IMG/VR virus record: IMGVR_UViG_3300017971_000165
Location: 1-34,505 of that record
DNA: 34,505 nt
Strand: one strand, 5' to 3'
DNA from: a virus
Positions 1 to 34,505 of this stretch are shown piece by piece. The stretch's first letter is position 1. The number at the start of each line of letters is the position of its first letter. Position numbers and translations under genes: made by a program. The notes below the pieces were generated by a model that saw only the letters and a program-made list of their open reading frames with translations, was not told where the DNA came from and ran no database searches.

Positions 1-123
1 ACCGAGTCGTCGGCAATTAAGTAGGCTTGAGCAAAGCCCTGCATCATGACTACTTGTGCCAAAGAGCTTTGTAGTGAGTTGTATTCAATGGTGAACTCAG
101 ATAAAGAGTCACCTTGACGCACC
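1..123. repeat. Terminal direct repeat (left copy)
   Basis: These 123 bases are identical to the last 123 bases of the window. The portal reading frame continues exactly from one copy into the other, so this is the overlap of a circular or circularly permuted genome written out linearly. The length is short for a biological terminal repeat and fits an assembler overlap. It does not by itself show where the packaged ends lie. Confidence 0.93.
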
Positions 124-911
124 CAGTACTCAAAGTCCTTCATTTGAGAGACTTCTACAATAGGGATCACGCCAGCTATGTTGCGAGTGTCTTCGCCTGA
201 TACGATCTCACCCTTTTCATTCATTATGAAGTTGAACTCGGGTGTCCATACTACATATCTTTTGGCTTTCTTTAGAAAGTCATCCGGGTCACCTGATAGT
301 TGATCGCGAAAGTCGCTGTCTTGGTCAGTCCAGTTGTCGTATCGACCGATTGAGCTTGTGCCGCCTATTTGATCGCGCCTATTTCTTCTAAACATGTTCT
401 TATCAACGGTCGAGATAACGTAACCCGCTGCTGTCTCTGGGTCTTTATCATCGTCAATCTTGTCAATGTGGTGAGACGGAAGAATACGCATCTGCAGTTG
501 ACCATTCACAGGTACGATCATGATATGGTTTTGTGATTGAAGCTTGAACATCTCGTTGGACTTAAGCATTTTGGCATTTATTGCCATGTCCATATAGATG
601 TTCTCTAGCGCCATTATTTGTTGATCTGAAACCTCTCCAAATATCCTTTCTGGTGGGTTCTTGTAGATAGAAGCTTCTTGCTTGGCGATACGTCTGGCCA
701 AATTGATTGAACTCACTACTGGCATCTCATTGACAGTGCCTCTATTGAATCGCCTTATAAGTCGCTCGTACACATGATCAAAGATGCGATCGTTAAAGAT
801 CTCTACCTGTCTAAGAGACTCAGCTTTCCTGCCGATGTTCTCGCTGGATTCAATGTCTTCGATTAAAGAGACTCTGCCTCGTTTATTGCTAAGATCAACC
901 GAAATTGCCAT
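1..911 (-). CDS. Portal protein, N-terminal part (continues at the other window end)
   Basis: Reading starts at ATG 909-911, which follows an AAGGAAG ribosome site nine bases after the large terminase stop. It begins MAISVDLSNKRGRVSL and runs off the window at base 1. It then continues in the same frame from 34504 down to the stop at 33695, giving 532 residues in total. Size, the position directly after terminase and before neck, scaffold and capsid genes, and the charged N-terminus fit an SPP1 gp6-like portal, the dodecameric ring at the capsid vertex through which DNA is packaged. The assignment rests mainly on gene order and length. Confidence 0.82.
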   Translation of the reverse strand, partial: MAISVDLSNKRGRVSLIEDIESSENIGRKAESLRQVEIFNDRIFDHVYERLIRRFNRGTVNEMPVVSSINLARRIAKQEASIYKNPPERIFGEVSDQQIMALENIYMDMAINAKMLKSNEMFKLQSQNHIMIVPVNGQLQMRILPSHHIDKIDDDKDPETAAGYVISTVDKNMFRRNRRDQIGGTSSIGRYDNWTDQDSDFRDQLSGDPDDFLKKAKRYVVWTPEFNFIMNEKGEIVSGEDTRNIAGVIPIVEVSQMKDFEYWVRQGDSLSEFTIEYNSLQSSLAQVVMMQGFAQAYLIADDS

Positions 912-6005: not shown

Positions 6006-6240
6006 AAATCACCCCCATCGTTAGCCCTAATATCATTGCGATCATTAAAACTGTTTGCCACATCCATATGTGACCGGCGTGGTAAGCGTGAGATCTGCAA
6101 GCCTCTACAAACATATTTGTAAAAGAGTGGGTCCACCCCTTTAATACTAAAAGCCTTTTAGCGTGTACTTTCATTTCAGCAATAAACTCTTGAGTTGTTT
6201 TTCCGTTGGATTTTTCTACTTTATCAAGCTTCCAGCTCAT
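5998..6240 (-). CDS. Small membrane protein, 80 aa
   Basis: The first 55 residues are soluble and basic. The last 22 (MWQTVLMIAMILGLTMGVIYG) form one transmembrane helix at the very C-terminus, which is tail-anchored topology. The ATG overlaps the stop of a 12-codon reading frame left downstream of the first glycine-repeat gene. It could be an inner-membrane accessory or holin-like factor, but the location among accessory genes gives no support for a lysis role. Confidence 0.65.
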   Translation of the reverse strand: MSWKLDKVEKSNGKTTQEFIAEMKVHAKRLLVLKGWTHSFTNMFVEACRSHAYHAGHIWMWQTVLMIAMILGLTMGVIYG

Positions 6241-6275
6241 CTGTTTTTCCCGTTTTTAAATTCGGCTTTTTTCAT
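6237..6275 (-). CDS. 12-aa frame MKKAEFKNGKNR downstream of glycine-repeat gene 1
   Basis: This very short frame opens with ATGAAAAAAGC, the same start found at the 139-residue gene at 7168 and at a four-codon frame at 6540. Its ATG overlaps the stop of glycine-repeat gene 1, and its stop overlaps the start of the membrane protein gene. It is either a translation-coupling bridge or the stump of a duplicated gene start; I favour the stump. Confidence 0.4.
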   Translation of the reverse strand: MKKAEFKNGKNR

Positions 6276-6529
6276 TCTAAAACTCCGTCTCCGTCTCCTT
6301 GTCCGTGTCCGCTTCCGTCTCCGTTTCCGTGTCCGCTTCCGTCTCCGTAACCGTTTCCGTCTCCGCTTCCGTATCCGTTTCCGTATCCGTTTCCGTCTCC
6401 GTATCCGTTTCCGTCTCCGTCTCCGTCTCCGTCTCCGCATCCAAATCCGTCTCCGTGTCCGCGCCCGTTTCCGTAGCCGTAGCCGTAGCCGTGGCCGCTT
6501 CCGTCTATAGTTTCGTGTGTTATTTTCAT
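6272..6529 (-). CDS. Glycine-X repeat protein 1, 85 aa
   Basis: After the leader MKITHETIDG, the protein is an unbroken alternation of glycine with D, N, Y, H, S, C or R (for example GDGNGYGDGSGHG), ending DGVLE. The DNA is a tandem hexamer, mostly GGA followed by an N-A/G-C codon. This frame is preferred because the first two bases of each glycine codon are fixed while the third varies silently, and because leader and tail match repeat gene 2. The start ATG overlaps a stop of a four-codon MKKA frame. The protein should be flexible and very hydrophilic. I do not know its function. Confidence 0.7.
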   Translation of the reverse strand: MKITHETIDGSGHGYGYGYGNGRGHGDGFGCGDGDGDGDGNGYGDGNGYGNGYGSGDGNGYGDGSGHGNGDGSGHGQGDGDGVLE

Positions 6530-6540
6530 GCTTTTTTCAT
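6526..6540 (-). pseudogene. Four-codon MKKA frame, echo of a duplicated gene start
   Basis: ATG AAA AAA GCA TGA sits between glycine-repeat genes 2 and 1. Its ATG overlaps the stop of gene 2 and its TGA overlaps the ATG of gene 1. The first four codons equal those of the 139-residue gene at 7168. I read it as the remains of that gene start, duplicated along with the repeat gene. Confidence 0.5.
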
Positions 6541-6752
6541 TCTAAAACTCCGTCTCCGTCTCCGTCTCCGTAACCGCATCCGTATCCGTGTCCGCTTCCG
6601 TCTCCGTAACCGTTTCCGTCTCCGCTTCCACCCCCGCCTCCGTATCCGTCTCCGTGTCCGTAGCCGTATCCGCGTCCGTGTCCGTGTCCGCGCCCGTTTC
6701 CGTAGCCGTAGCCGTAGCCGTAGCCGCTTCCGTCTATAGTTTCGTGTGTCAC
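6537..6752 (-). CDS. Glycine-X repeat protein 2, 71 aa
   Basis: The GTG at 6750-6752 overlaps the stop of the 139-residue gene (GTGA) and gives the leader THETIDGSG, the same as in repeat gene 1, so it is chosen over an ATG ten codons upstream. The body is glycine alternating with Y, H, D, R, S, N or C, with one short all-glycine run (GYGGGGGSG). It ends DGDGDGVLE like gene 1. The segment DGNGYGDGSGHG is shared by genes 1 and 2, so the order of the X residues is partly conserved. Confidence 0.7.
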   Translation of the reverse strand: MTHETIDGSGYGYGYGYGNGRGHGHGRGYGYGHGDGYGGGGGSGDGNGYGDGSGHGYGCGYGDGDGDGVLE

Positions 6753-7168
6753 TTTATGGCGTCCTCTAATTTCTCCGCCCAAAAACCACCGCCCTTTTCC
6801 CTAAACTCTCTAATGGTCATCTTGGCGGTAAAGTCCAGCCCTCTCTCTTTTAACCAATCCTCGCAGCCGGACCTACACGCCCTTGTAAGCTTACGAAAAA
6901 GTCTTACAGAGAATTTAAAGTCTTCCGATTTGTACTTTTCCTTTTCTTCTTGCGATATAGGTTTTTCGCCGTCACGCTTTTCTACCGCGTCCTCAATTGC
7001 TTCCTCGATGGTTACACCGTGGGCGCAAGCTGGCTCTCCTTGTAGCTCAACAAAAAATCTCTTTTCGCCATTTTCTGTGTAGAGTACCTCTATTATCTCA
7101 CCGCCTGGTGACTCGAATACCTCTCCCTTAGTAAATAAATCTATTCCATCTCTATATGCTTTTTTCAT
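6749..7168 (-). CDS. Hypothetical phage protein with CAHG / TRAC motifs, 139 aa
   Basis: Start ATG 7166-7168 overlaps the stop of glycine-repeat gene 3; upstream codons stay open only because the hexamer repeat has no stops. Residues about 45-60 contain CAHGVTIEEAIEDAV and residues about 90-105 contain LTRACRSGCEDWL. From memory, a CAHG...EAI...TGAC-type region is also found at the C-terminus of some phage repeat proteins whose N-terminal part is leucine-rich, which would make repeat-plus-CAHG a recurring pairing. That is recall, not a search. Function unknown; probably cytoplasmic. Confidence 0.65.
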   Translation of the reverse strand: MKKAYRDGIDLFTKGEVFESPGGEIIEVLYTENGEKRFFVELQGEPACAHGVTIEEAIEDAVEKRDGEKPISQEEKEKYKSEDFKFSVRLFRKLTRACRSGCEDWLKERGLDFTAKMTIREFREKGGGFWAEKLEDAIK

Positions 7169-7380
7169 TGCAAAACTCCGTATCCGTGTCCGTATCCTTG
7201 TCCGCTTCCGTCTCCGTAACCGTTTCCGTCTCCGTCTCCGTCTCCGAGTCCGTGTCCATATCCGTAACAGAGTCCGTGTCCGTATCCGTCTCCACTTCCG
7301 CTTCCTTCTCCGTATCCGCATCCGTGTCCGCGTCCGGGTCCGCCTCCGTGCCCGTGTCCGCTAATAACCCCGTTATTCAT
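7165..7380 (-). CDS. Glycine-X repeat protein 3, 71 aa
   Basis: The start ATG overlaps the upstream stop in an ATGAATAA arrangement. The leader (MNNGVISGHGHG) differs from genes 1 and 2, and the end is GVLQ in place of GVLE. It is the most degenerate copy: P, E, L and Q occur at X positions and one glycine has become cysteine (HGLCYG). It still shares DGNGYGDGSGQG with the others. The stop overlaps the ATG of the 139-residue gene. This may be the oldest copy. Confidence 0.68.
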   Translation of the reverse strand: MNNGVISGHGHGGGPGRGHGCGYGEGSGSGDGYGHGLCYGYGHGLGDGDGDGNGYGDGSGQGYGHGYGVLQ

Positions 7381-7681
7381 AGTTGGCTATCGACTCCCAT
7401 GCAATATCAGTCATTTCACTAATTTCCAAGCCTTGCGGATTAACAATAGTTGTTGTTGGGATGACTGCGCCTATGCTGTGGTCCGCGTTCGGCTTTAGTC
7501 CATTGGCGCAAACGTCAGATATAGATCCGCTGGAGTCCCTTGTGTAGACCCTCCAAAGTCTCCTGGTGTTTTTTAAACAGATTGTTTGATTGCCGAGATC
7601 GACTGAGACAACTTCCCCTGCATGAACACCTGCTACGTTTGCCCTTACAATTACTCTTTTACCGATTAGACCTTTTTCCAT
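7373..7681 (-). CDS. DUF6948-like phage protein, 102 aa
   Basis: The pattern VIVRANVAGVHAGEVVSVD, then NTRRLWRVYTRDSSGSISDVCANGLKP, and finally AVIPTTTI matches what I remember of a widespread phage family (DUF6948: R-x-x-x-AGV-x-AG, RRLW/RRIW, then 'E-I-I-P-x-T'). Members are small beta-rich proteins of unknown role. It ends in an eight-base overlap with glycine-repeat gene 3 and begins after a weak ribosome site 13 bases from the lipoprotein stop. Confidence 0.65.
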   Translation of the reverse strand: MEKGLIGKRVIVRANVAGVHAGEVVSVDLGNQTICLKNTRRLWRVYTRDSSGSISDVCANGLKPNADHSIGAVIPTTTIVNPQGLEISEMTDIAWESIANYE

Positions 7682-33283: not shown

Positions 33284-33789
33284 TACAGTATTTCCAGATC
33301 CAATCTATCTATTGCCGAGAAAAGCTCTTGCACTGTTTGCTTGCGCTCTTCTTGTATTTCCTCTTGCTCTTTGATTCTCTTTACAGCCTCGTCAACCCTT
33401 CTTCGTATGGATTGCTTGAACTTCTGACCTTCTGCTGGGATAAACTTTCTCTCAGGGACTGTGTCTCCTTCGTTATGATTGAAAGCTTTAGGAGCTTCTC
33501 TCTTAGAGAATACGCCGACTTCAATAGTTGATCCTTTTCTTCTCTTGTAAGTGATTGAGTTTCTAAGATCTCCTGTTTCAAAGAGCTGAGAAGGTCCCCC
33601 GTCTTGTTTAAAAGATTTGAACTTTCCTCCAGAGACTGGGCTATTTGATCCATCGAGAAATTTGTTGATTTCTTCAACTATTATTCTCCCTGCCTCATTC
33701 TTCGCTTGGGTCTTCTGATCCCTGTTCAAGTCCTCCAGGTCCAGGTCGACTGTCGTCGTTACTATCTTCTCCCCTAGTGATATTGGCAT
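33283..33789 (-). CDS. Phage virion morphogenesis (neck) protein, 168 aa
   Basis: SPVSGGKFKSFKQDGGPSQL, FETGDLRNSITYKRR, TIEVGVFSKREAPKAFNHNE and RKFIPAEGQKF match the virion morphogenesis/gpG-like family ('L-x-x-T-G-x-L-x-x-S-I...V-G-V...A...HN-x-G...R-x-F-I-P'), which completes the neck or tail. It overlaps the portal end by 95 bases. A second open frame inside it (33381-33677) looks like an out-of-frame shadow. Confidence 0.66.
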   Translation of the reverse strand: MPISLGEKIVTTTVDLDLEDLNRDQKTQAKNEAGRIIVEEINKFLDGSNSPVSGGKFKSFKQDGGPSQLFETGDLRNSITYKRRKGSTIEVGVFSKREAPKAFNHNEGDTVPERKFIPAEGQKFKQSIRRRVDEAVKRIKEQEEIQEERKQTVQELFSAIDRLDLEIL

Positions 33790-34505
33790 TCATACCTCCA
33801 ATCATCATTTCTTCTGCTTCAATCTCTTTAAGGCGCTCTATTGCTACAGATCTGTCCTCGATACCCTCAAGGTCCATGATCATATCCACTCTAGAGGCGA
33901 CTCCCTCTTGCATTTTCTTAATCCATGAGTCGAGCCTGTCCTCGTCAGTCTTGATCATTTCAGGCCCTGCAAACTTAACAAACATCTGTGCGCCCTCGCT
34001 GATAGTTGAGGACTGATATTTTGAGTCTAGTATTTCGCGTGAACCCAGTGAGGCATTGTGCCATGCGCGAACAATGTTAAAGATCTCCTTCTCGGCACGC
34101 TCATACATGTCAAAGTCTGATCTAGATGCTTCGAACTGGCTCACCATACTGAGTAGTCGCTCTACACCGCTTCCAAATTGCTGGCTCTCGCCTCGACCTG
34201 ATACAAGCGATGGATCTAGTCCCCTTGATGTCAGAAAGCTCGCTAGAAGCTGTTCAGCGTGTGAGATACCACCTGAGATATCACCACCTGGATTAGCAAA
34301 GCCAAACTCGGGTCGTTCACCCGTTGCATCAACTGGAAGCTTTAGTACGAAGTTTGGACCAATCTGTAGATTGTCTGGCGTTACCGAGTCGTCGGCAATT
34401 AAGTAGGCTTGAGCAAAGCCCTGCATCATGACTACTTGTGCCAAAGAGCTTTGTAGTGAGTTGTATTCAATGGTGAACTCAGATAAAGAGTCACCTTGAC
34501 GCACC
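33695..34505 (-). CDS. Portal protein, C-terminal part (start is at 911 across the junction)
   Basis: This is the C-terminal half of the gene that starts at 911. An apparent GTG start at the right edge is only an internal valine in the motif YWVRQGD once the circle is closed. The tail is acidic and contains a helical stretch (RLKEIEAEEMMIGG). It overlaps the following neck gene by 95 bases, which is an unusually long overlap in this genome. Confidence 0.82.
   Translation of the reverse strand, partial: VRQGDSLSEFTIEYNSLQSSLAQVVMMQGFAQAYLIADDSVTPDNLQIGPNFVLKLPVDATGERPEFGFANPGGDISGGISHAEQLLASFLTSRGLDPSLVSGRGESQQFGSGVERLLSMVSQFEASRSDFDMYERAEKEIFNIVRAWHNASLGSREILDSKYQSSTISEGAQMFVKFAGPEMIKTDEDRLDSWIKKMQEGVASRVDMIMDLEGIEDRSVAIERLKEIEAEEMMIGGMNANITRGEDSNDDSRPGPGGLEQGSEDPSEE
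34383..34505. repeat. Terminal direct repeat (right copy)
   Basis: Second copy of the 123-bp sequence at the window start. It lies inside the portal coding sequence. Removing one copy gives a circle of about 34,382 bp. Confidence 0.93.

Follow-up and report, generated by a model that had tools for sequence, protein, structure and literature searches.

Gene layout of the module

Within the window, by which we mean the whole 34,505 nt stretch of IMG/VR virus record IMGVR_UViG_3300017971_000165, three genuine genes on the minus strand (R1, R2 and R3) encode almost pure Gly-X repeats, abbreviated here to (GX)n, in which glycine occupies every second residue. They belong to a compact module whose features are listed below from its first gene onwards.

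7373-7681 (-): DUF6948 gene, 102 aa, first gene of the module; Pfam PF22253; predicted Sm/LSm-like small beta-barrel
7165-7380 (-): R3, (Gly-X)n gene, 71 aa, tail GVLQ; its first bases overlap the 3' end of the DUF6948 gene
7176-7179 (-): GGAG, Shine-Dalgarno-like, putative site for the AHG gene; inside the GV codons of the R3 tail GVLQ
6749-7168 (-): AHG gene (previously labelled 'CAHG/TRAC'), 139 aa; start overlaps the R3 stop (ATGA)
6537-6752 (-): R2, (Gly-X)n gene, 71 aa when started at the GTG that shares bases with the AHG stop (GTGA); tail DGVLE
6526-6540 (-): 4-codon frame, MKKA and stop; copy of the AHG start (ATGAAAAAAGC)
6272-6529 (-): R1, (Gly-X)n gene, 85 aa, tail DGVLE
6237-6275 (-): 12-codon frame, MKKAEFKNGKNR and stop; again a copy of the AHG start ATGAAAAAAGC

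The order of R3, the 139 aa gene, R2, the 4-codon frame, R1 and the 12-codon frame had been given in a preliminary description of the sequence and was correct by coordinates. The shared elements named there were also present as described, namely the leader THETIDGSG of R1 and R2, the tails DGVLE (R1 and R2) and GVLQ (R3), and the common string DGNGYGDGSG followed by H or Q. Junctions were tight throughout: ATGA joins the R3 stop to the AHG start, the R2 stop to the MKKA start and the R1 stop to the MKKA start that follows it, GTGA joins the AHG stop to the R2 start, and a further ATGA joins the stop of the 12-codon frame to the start of the gene that follows. An alternative upstream TTG start would extend R2 to 81 aa. 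Both R2 and R1 end with the same arrangement of GGAG within GV codons as R3 (GGAGTTTTAGAATG), a motif that could serve as the ribosome-binding site of the next gene. Because both short frames repeat the AHG start, their sequence suggests that they are the trace of a duplicated cassette comprising a (GX)n gene and the start of AHG.

IMG/VR classes the record as having linear ends. The same portal-like stretch (MRQGDSLSEFTIEYNSLQ...) was, however, encoded at both ends of the window (3-911 and 33695-34504), which makes it probable that the genome is complete, ~33.7 kb long and either circularly permuted or terminally redundant. A megablast search of named phages with a 12 kb query returned no match.

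Selection on the glycine frame

Glycine alternation was scored across the window and in control phage loci. The best score elsewhere in the window, from tiles over 8400-34000, was 6 compared with 28-37 in R1-R3, and none of the 19 control loci scored 8 or more. Among the glycine codons of the window, the third position departed from the consensus in 18 of 96 codons, whilst the first and second positions together departed at 1 of 192 sites (Fisher p ~1e-8). A broader set of 220 distinct arrays (6,983 hexamers), drawn from loci found through neighbouring genes, displayed the same pattern: hexamer positions 1 to 6 were off the array consensus in 2.1, 1.2, 10.7, 39.3, 28.9 and 10.7 % of cases, with the rates at positions 1-2 somewhat lowered by the recognition of arrays through Gly alternation. 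Since an array was present in 155 of the 160 phage loci collected through DUF6948 (see below), any unrecognised class of broken arrays must be small. The first two positions of the glycine codon were 5-9 times more constant than the third, and because this synonymous base varies far more than the other two, it is the protein, not the DNA, that is kept.

All four glycine codons were found across phages (GGC, GGT, GGA or GGG). Each phage array relied on one of them, usually for >80 % of its glycines, and usage was mixed in other genes of the same genome. Serine was encoded by AGC in GGA arrays and by TCC in GGT arrays, and the third base of the X codon was C, T or G depending on the phage. These data bear on the alternative that the GGNNNC repeat has its function as DNA or RNA, for example as a recombination hotspot, G-quadruplex or CsrA sponge, with the reading frame incidental. 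The hexamer is homogenised and length-variable, ACGGA motifs in GGA arrays resemble CsrA sites, and genes are flanked by tandem copies, as could be expected of recombination tracts. However, the conserved entity is glycine rather than any one DNA sequence, given four codons for it and a phage-dependent third base for X, the constancy of positions 1-2 far exceeds that of position 3, and starts and stops are kept between isolates, and we consider this explanation improbable. As a general account, a CsrA sponge or any other DNA or RNA motif was rejected in view of the GGT, GGC and GGG arrays. A universal C at hexamer position 6 was also rejected as a DNA constraint, as it partly reflected biased search patterns, and L133, L135 and L146 use T.

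Recent array evolution could be followed in ten Rheinheimera Barba phages, whose DUF6948 genes were identical or one base apart. Their arrays differed only where whole 6-nt units had been gained or lost or X had been swapped, and that of Barba19A was largely rebuilt, with 34 units versus 29. Shifted frames, stops in the glycine frame or an unconserved leader and tail in related phages had been proposed as signs that the repeat is not coding; in these ten phages the leader, frame and stop were all kept. The preliminary description was thus right to regard the repeats as real genes rather than a stray microsatellite, as the glycine frame persists in relatives whose DNA repeat is built from different hexamers (GGA, GGT, GGC or GGG). 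Its view of the tails applied more narrowly: they are conserved among close relatives, but beyond these many related arrays stop directly in the repeat.

Many viral contigs ended inside a (GX)n array (L001, L131-L133, L143, L148, L193 and L200), and since assemblies break in arrays, (GX)n copy numbers are underestimated. Another (GX)n subfamily, with the leader M..[YF][FM]YPVG and the tail SIST(R)TRRR, was present in L153, L165, L206 and L240; in L206, L165 and L240 the locus starts or ends in an array.

The residues at X in the 220 arrays were predominantly Tyr (28 %), Asp (23 %), Ser (20 %), Asn (7 %) and Thr (5 %), with aliphatics at ~2 %, basic residues rare and a net charge of about -11 per 100 aa. 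Their order was random by runs test for aromatic and acidic residues alike, and aromatic stickers (Tyr/Phe/Trp) were not spaced more evenly than chance (mean z 0.1). The composition of X also varied by phage, with Trp, Ala, Thr and Cys in L135, Lys, Thr and Glu in L147, Val in L129 and few Asp in L133 and L135, so that no exact sticker set is conserved; common to all arrays were only glycine at alternate residues and the class of X. Arg and Lys were nearly absent from the arrays, and tryptic proteomics would consequently miss the (GX)n proteins.

Asp, Asn and Ser at alternate residues might form DxDxDG-like loops that bind Ca2+ or Mg2+, reminiscent of the loops of EF-hand, dockerin or RTX proteins. 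Whilst the shares of Asp, Ser and Asn and the strongly acidic character of the arrays are in keeping with such a role, the commonest X is Tyr, Asp is scarce in L133 and L135, X is rich in Lys and Thr in L147, and the random order of X provides no fixed loop order, making metal binding a quite unlikely function. A diversity-generating retroelement target was rejected on the spectrum of X, in which Thr, Ile, Ala, Pro, Val and Leu are nearly absent, contrary to that expected from adenine mutagenesis of AAC codons; no reverse transcriptase was recognised by eye among the window ORFs. Matches of the repeat to Pfam TrAA12, an NCBIfam 'serine-rich protein' and PHROG families were dismissed as composition artefacts.

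DUF6948 and AHG as neighbours of the arrays

The association between (GX)n and DUF6948 was assessed with alignments of two other DUF6948 clades alone as bait, without reference to the repeat. These detected 560 and 400 relatives in IMG/VR, from which 80 loci per clade were sampled. An array was found on the same strand within ~1.5 kb of DUF6948 in 155 of the 160 phage loci (79/80 and 76/80 in the two clades) and none lay on the opposite strand; in 139 loci (73 and 66, respectively) it was situated no more than 400 nt downstream. Loci fetched as controls through the SSB gene of the window contained a (GX)n array in 0 of 19 cases. Close relatives of the window DUF6948 in IMG/VR (21 loci) were adjoined by one to nine (GX)n frames, with a single exception that was cut at a contig end. 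In the reverse direction, repeat DNA patterns alone yielded 89 loci, 55 of which carried DUF6948 according to an iterated HMM, all on the same strand and 50 of them with an array within 150 nt; many of the loci that lacked it start at a contig edge.

Nine named or isolate phages were examined, and every one had the pair: Pectobacterium Abuela, Rheinheimera Barba1A, Rhodobacter RcapNL, Eggerthella PMBT5, Iodobacter PhiPLPE, Chlorobiaceae CV-1-33, Vibrio IKEMa6-1, and the metagenomic ctOK67 and ct8d5349. (GX)n is a widespread gene family, conserved at the protein level, with DUF6948 as a nearly obligate same-strand neighbour in phages. Bacterial-genome contigs from several phyla also carried an array directly downstream of DUF6948 in 9 of 13 cases (second clade), and a scan of such contigs with the narrow DUF6948 clade gave no relatives. 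No gene fusion between DUF6948 and (GX)n was seen among the loci collected. The preliminary description had raised the question of whether the AHG gene is always adjacent to the repeats. The almost invariable neighbour is DUF6948, although AHG is frequent in the clade of the window and sometimes fused to an array.

Gene callers mishandle the family. The array of Chlorobiaceae phage CV-1-33 (L278 2286-2531) was annotated in another frame (MAMAMALAM...), and that of PhiPLPE (L277 ~1161) was not annotated at all. A Neisseria gonorrhoeae record (L463 ~1683-2560), of chromosome size yet filed as a plasmid, contained DUF6948 followed by a (GX)n gene, neither of which was annotated in the gene table used.

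Genes neighbouring the module encode SSB, RecE-like, Sak4-like, HNH and regulator proteins. This context is relevant to a role as a virion or surface protein, such as an adhesive or masking coat, for which the names given in databases, 'adsorption protein' for PMBT5 and 'lamprin' for ctOK67, and the silk-like composition might be cited. These names are not backed by any evidence that we saw, the array genes sit with replication and regulator genes, and no secretion signal was evident by eye in the leaders, leaving a surface role very unlikely. Mass spectrometry of PMBT5 virions reported six structural proteins without (GX)n among them, a result to be read in the light of trypsin being hardly able to detect (GX)n (PMC9394477). 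A low-complexity Gly-rich chain could instead stall host AAA+ proteases, and the composition and variable length of the arrays, which carry no sequence specificity, would suit a blocker of proteases or unfoldases. The Gly-Ala repeat of EBNA1, which stalls proteasomes, offers a precedent. Such a function would nonetheless leave the near-constant DUF6948 partner unexplained, and we rate its probability as very low.

The DUF6948 protein of the window matched Pfam PF22253 over model positions 1-85 of 85 (E 4e-12, 46.5 bits against a cut-off of 27). Its AlphaFold2 model (pLDDT 92.7) comprised an N-terminal helix and five bent strands in Sm order. All 50 matches listed by VIA were Sm/LSm proteins or spliceosomal complexes containing them, the best with Z 8.8 and an rmsd of 2.3 over 76 residues, and 1i8f with Z 8.6 and an rmsd of 1.9 over 67. 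The top Foldseek match was the LSm domain of LSM14 (E 0.009), with others worse, and the Pfam LSM14 family was weakly matched by 9 of 19 DUF6948 members, the best (E 0.0026) falling below the curated cut-off. PDB sequence searches with the DUF6948 and AHG alignments produced no meaningful match, and no Sm protein for DUF6948. Small barrels do resemble one another. The model has the alpha1-beta1 to beta5 order of Sm/LSm proteins, and especially of the LSM14 LSm domain, but its loop between strands 3 and 4 is enlarged and contains a helix. The Arg-Gly motif of Sm2 was absent from the DUF6948 alignment (A2), which has N-P-x-G-L-E in the region of strands 4-5, and for this reason we describe the protein as predicted to be Sm-like rather than as a member of the Sm family. 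LSM14 and EDC3 are likewise divergent at the Sm2 motif.

The AHG protein takes its name from an invariant A-H-G (alignment A1, 23 sequences). Searches for a corresponding Pfam, PHROG, NCBIfam or PADLOC family found none, and the alignment points to AHG as a new domain. In most members of the window's clade AHG is located either between DUF6948 and the arrays or amid the arrays, whilst most DUF6948 loci are without it. Residues 21-67 of its AlphaFold2 model (pLDDT 92.4) gave weak matches of dsRBD type, with VIA returning uS5, DGCR8/Drosha, Dicer and R2D2 at Z of 4.9 or less and Foldseek giving E ~1. In L071, L141, L205, L213, L228, L236, L242, L272 and WP_320691052.1, AHG was fused in frame behind (GX)n. 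The last of these occurs in Monoglobus pectinilyticus (L464 2261-3022), where DUF6948 is followed by the (GX)n-AHG fusion in a RefSeq-annotated element. In L101 (4834-5286, minus strand), (GX)n was fused in frame to DUF7666, another uncharacterised phage domain. A protein of Riemerella phage CRP5 (L271 87-527), annotated 'ribonuclease inhibitor', resembles the (GX)n-AHG fusions in placing a repeat region before an AHG-type domain, but differs in having BspA-like leucine-rich repeats in place of (GX)n.

Fusions to AHG and DUF7666 tie the repeat to defined domains, and could indicate that (GX)n is a flexible spacer, a linker or stalk that positions AHG or DUF7666, with the free-standing genes being split fusions. 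The in-frame arrangements of leader, (GX)n and AHG in L205, L228, L236, L272 and WP_320691052.1, the (GX)n-DUF7666 protein of L101, and the substitution of leucine-rich repeats in the Riemerella phage are all consistent with a spacer. Most arrays, however, stand alone, often as several genes in a row, with as many as nine frames in L135, and the scarcity of AHG among DUF6948 loci weighs in the same direction, so that we judge a spacer function unlikely.

Candidate function of the (GX)n proteins

The fixed glycine register and class of X, together with the random order of X, free length, acidity and richness in Tyr, point to bulk polymer properties rather than a folded enzyme. Of the roles previously suggested for these proteins, the composition favours a phase-forming one, with metal binding and surface masking less supported. 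Considering also the Sm-like partner, the occasional presence of a possible RNA-binding-like domain and the SSB, annealing and exonuclease genes nearby, an intracellular self-associating scaffold is the most likely reading, and we tentatively infer, at less than even probability, that (GX)n is a disordered or silk-like self-associating polymer that works together with the Sm-like protein encoded next to it in the replication region of the phage. Alternating glycines would keep the backbone uniform, whilst Tyr as stickers and Asp, Ser and Asn as spacers, in random order, would produce weak self-association. Together with the Sm-like DUF6948 protein, and with AHG in those phages that have it, the polymer would serve as a scaffold on which factors for phage replication or RNA may be assembled in early or middle infection. 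Slippage of 6-nt units would cause arrays to grow and shrink, which would be tolerated since length and order matter little, and selection would remove glycine loss and loss of X diversity.

Some observations count against the polymer. Ordinary condensate-forming domains do not need strict Gly alternation, and Arg, a common partner of Tyr in condensates, is the residue noted above as nearly missing from the arrays. The phage arrays resemble prion-like domains of the FUS/hnRNPA1 type in being Gly-rich, Tyr-bearing and of low complexity with random order. In SmD1, an Sm fold is joined to a Gly-Arg tail in which glycine alternates strictly. The arrays differ from this group in being without Arg and Gln, in alternating strictly and in being encoded by genes separate from that of the Sm-like partner. 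In the Gly-rich protein AtGRP2, removal of Tyr eased condensation (PMC13261584), which also argues against a polymer. Long strict Gly-X stretches, with X including Ser and Tyr, occur in the silk fibroin heavy chain of Bombyx mori (PMC6947416). The likeness to the phage arrays, strictly alternating Gly with small or polar X, is one of composition only and implies no homology: X in the fibroin is mainly Ala, and the protein is eukaryotic, secreted and forms crystalline sheets, whereas the arrays have Tyr, Asp, Ser and Asn at X and are acidic, 60-100 aa long and intracellular by context.

A more specific and doubtful proposal is that phages of many bacterial phyla carry a ribonucleoprotein-granule kit of two or three genes, composed of LSm-fold DUF6948, a separate low-complexity (GX)n scaffold and sometimes a dsRBD-like AHG, in which a phage-made condensate or fibre would organise the RNA of the phage or its replication during infection.

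A literature search returned no paper on DUF6948, DUF7666, such repeat strings or phage low-complexity Gly proteins, and the genome papers for three carriers, including those on the Barba phages, do not mention the gene. The pair probably escaped description because low-complexity filters hide (GX)n and its partner is a DUF. These results describe a gene pair located beside replication genes in phages and prophages of many phyla, with >900 DUF6948 relatives in IMG/VR. If the self-associating polymer is correct, phages would encode a silk-like or granule-forming protein that evolves fast yet keeps one fixed, Sm-like partner; if it is not, the family would still provide a clean natural case of protein-level selection on a hexanucleotide repeat.
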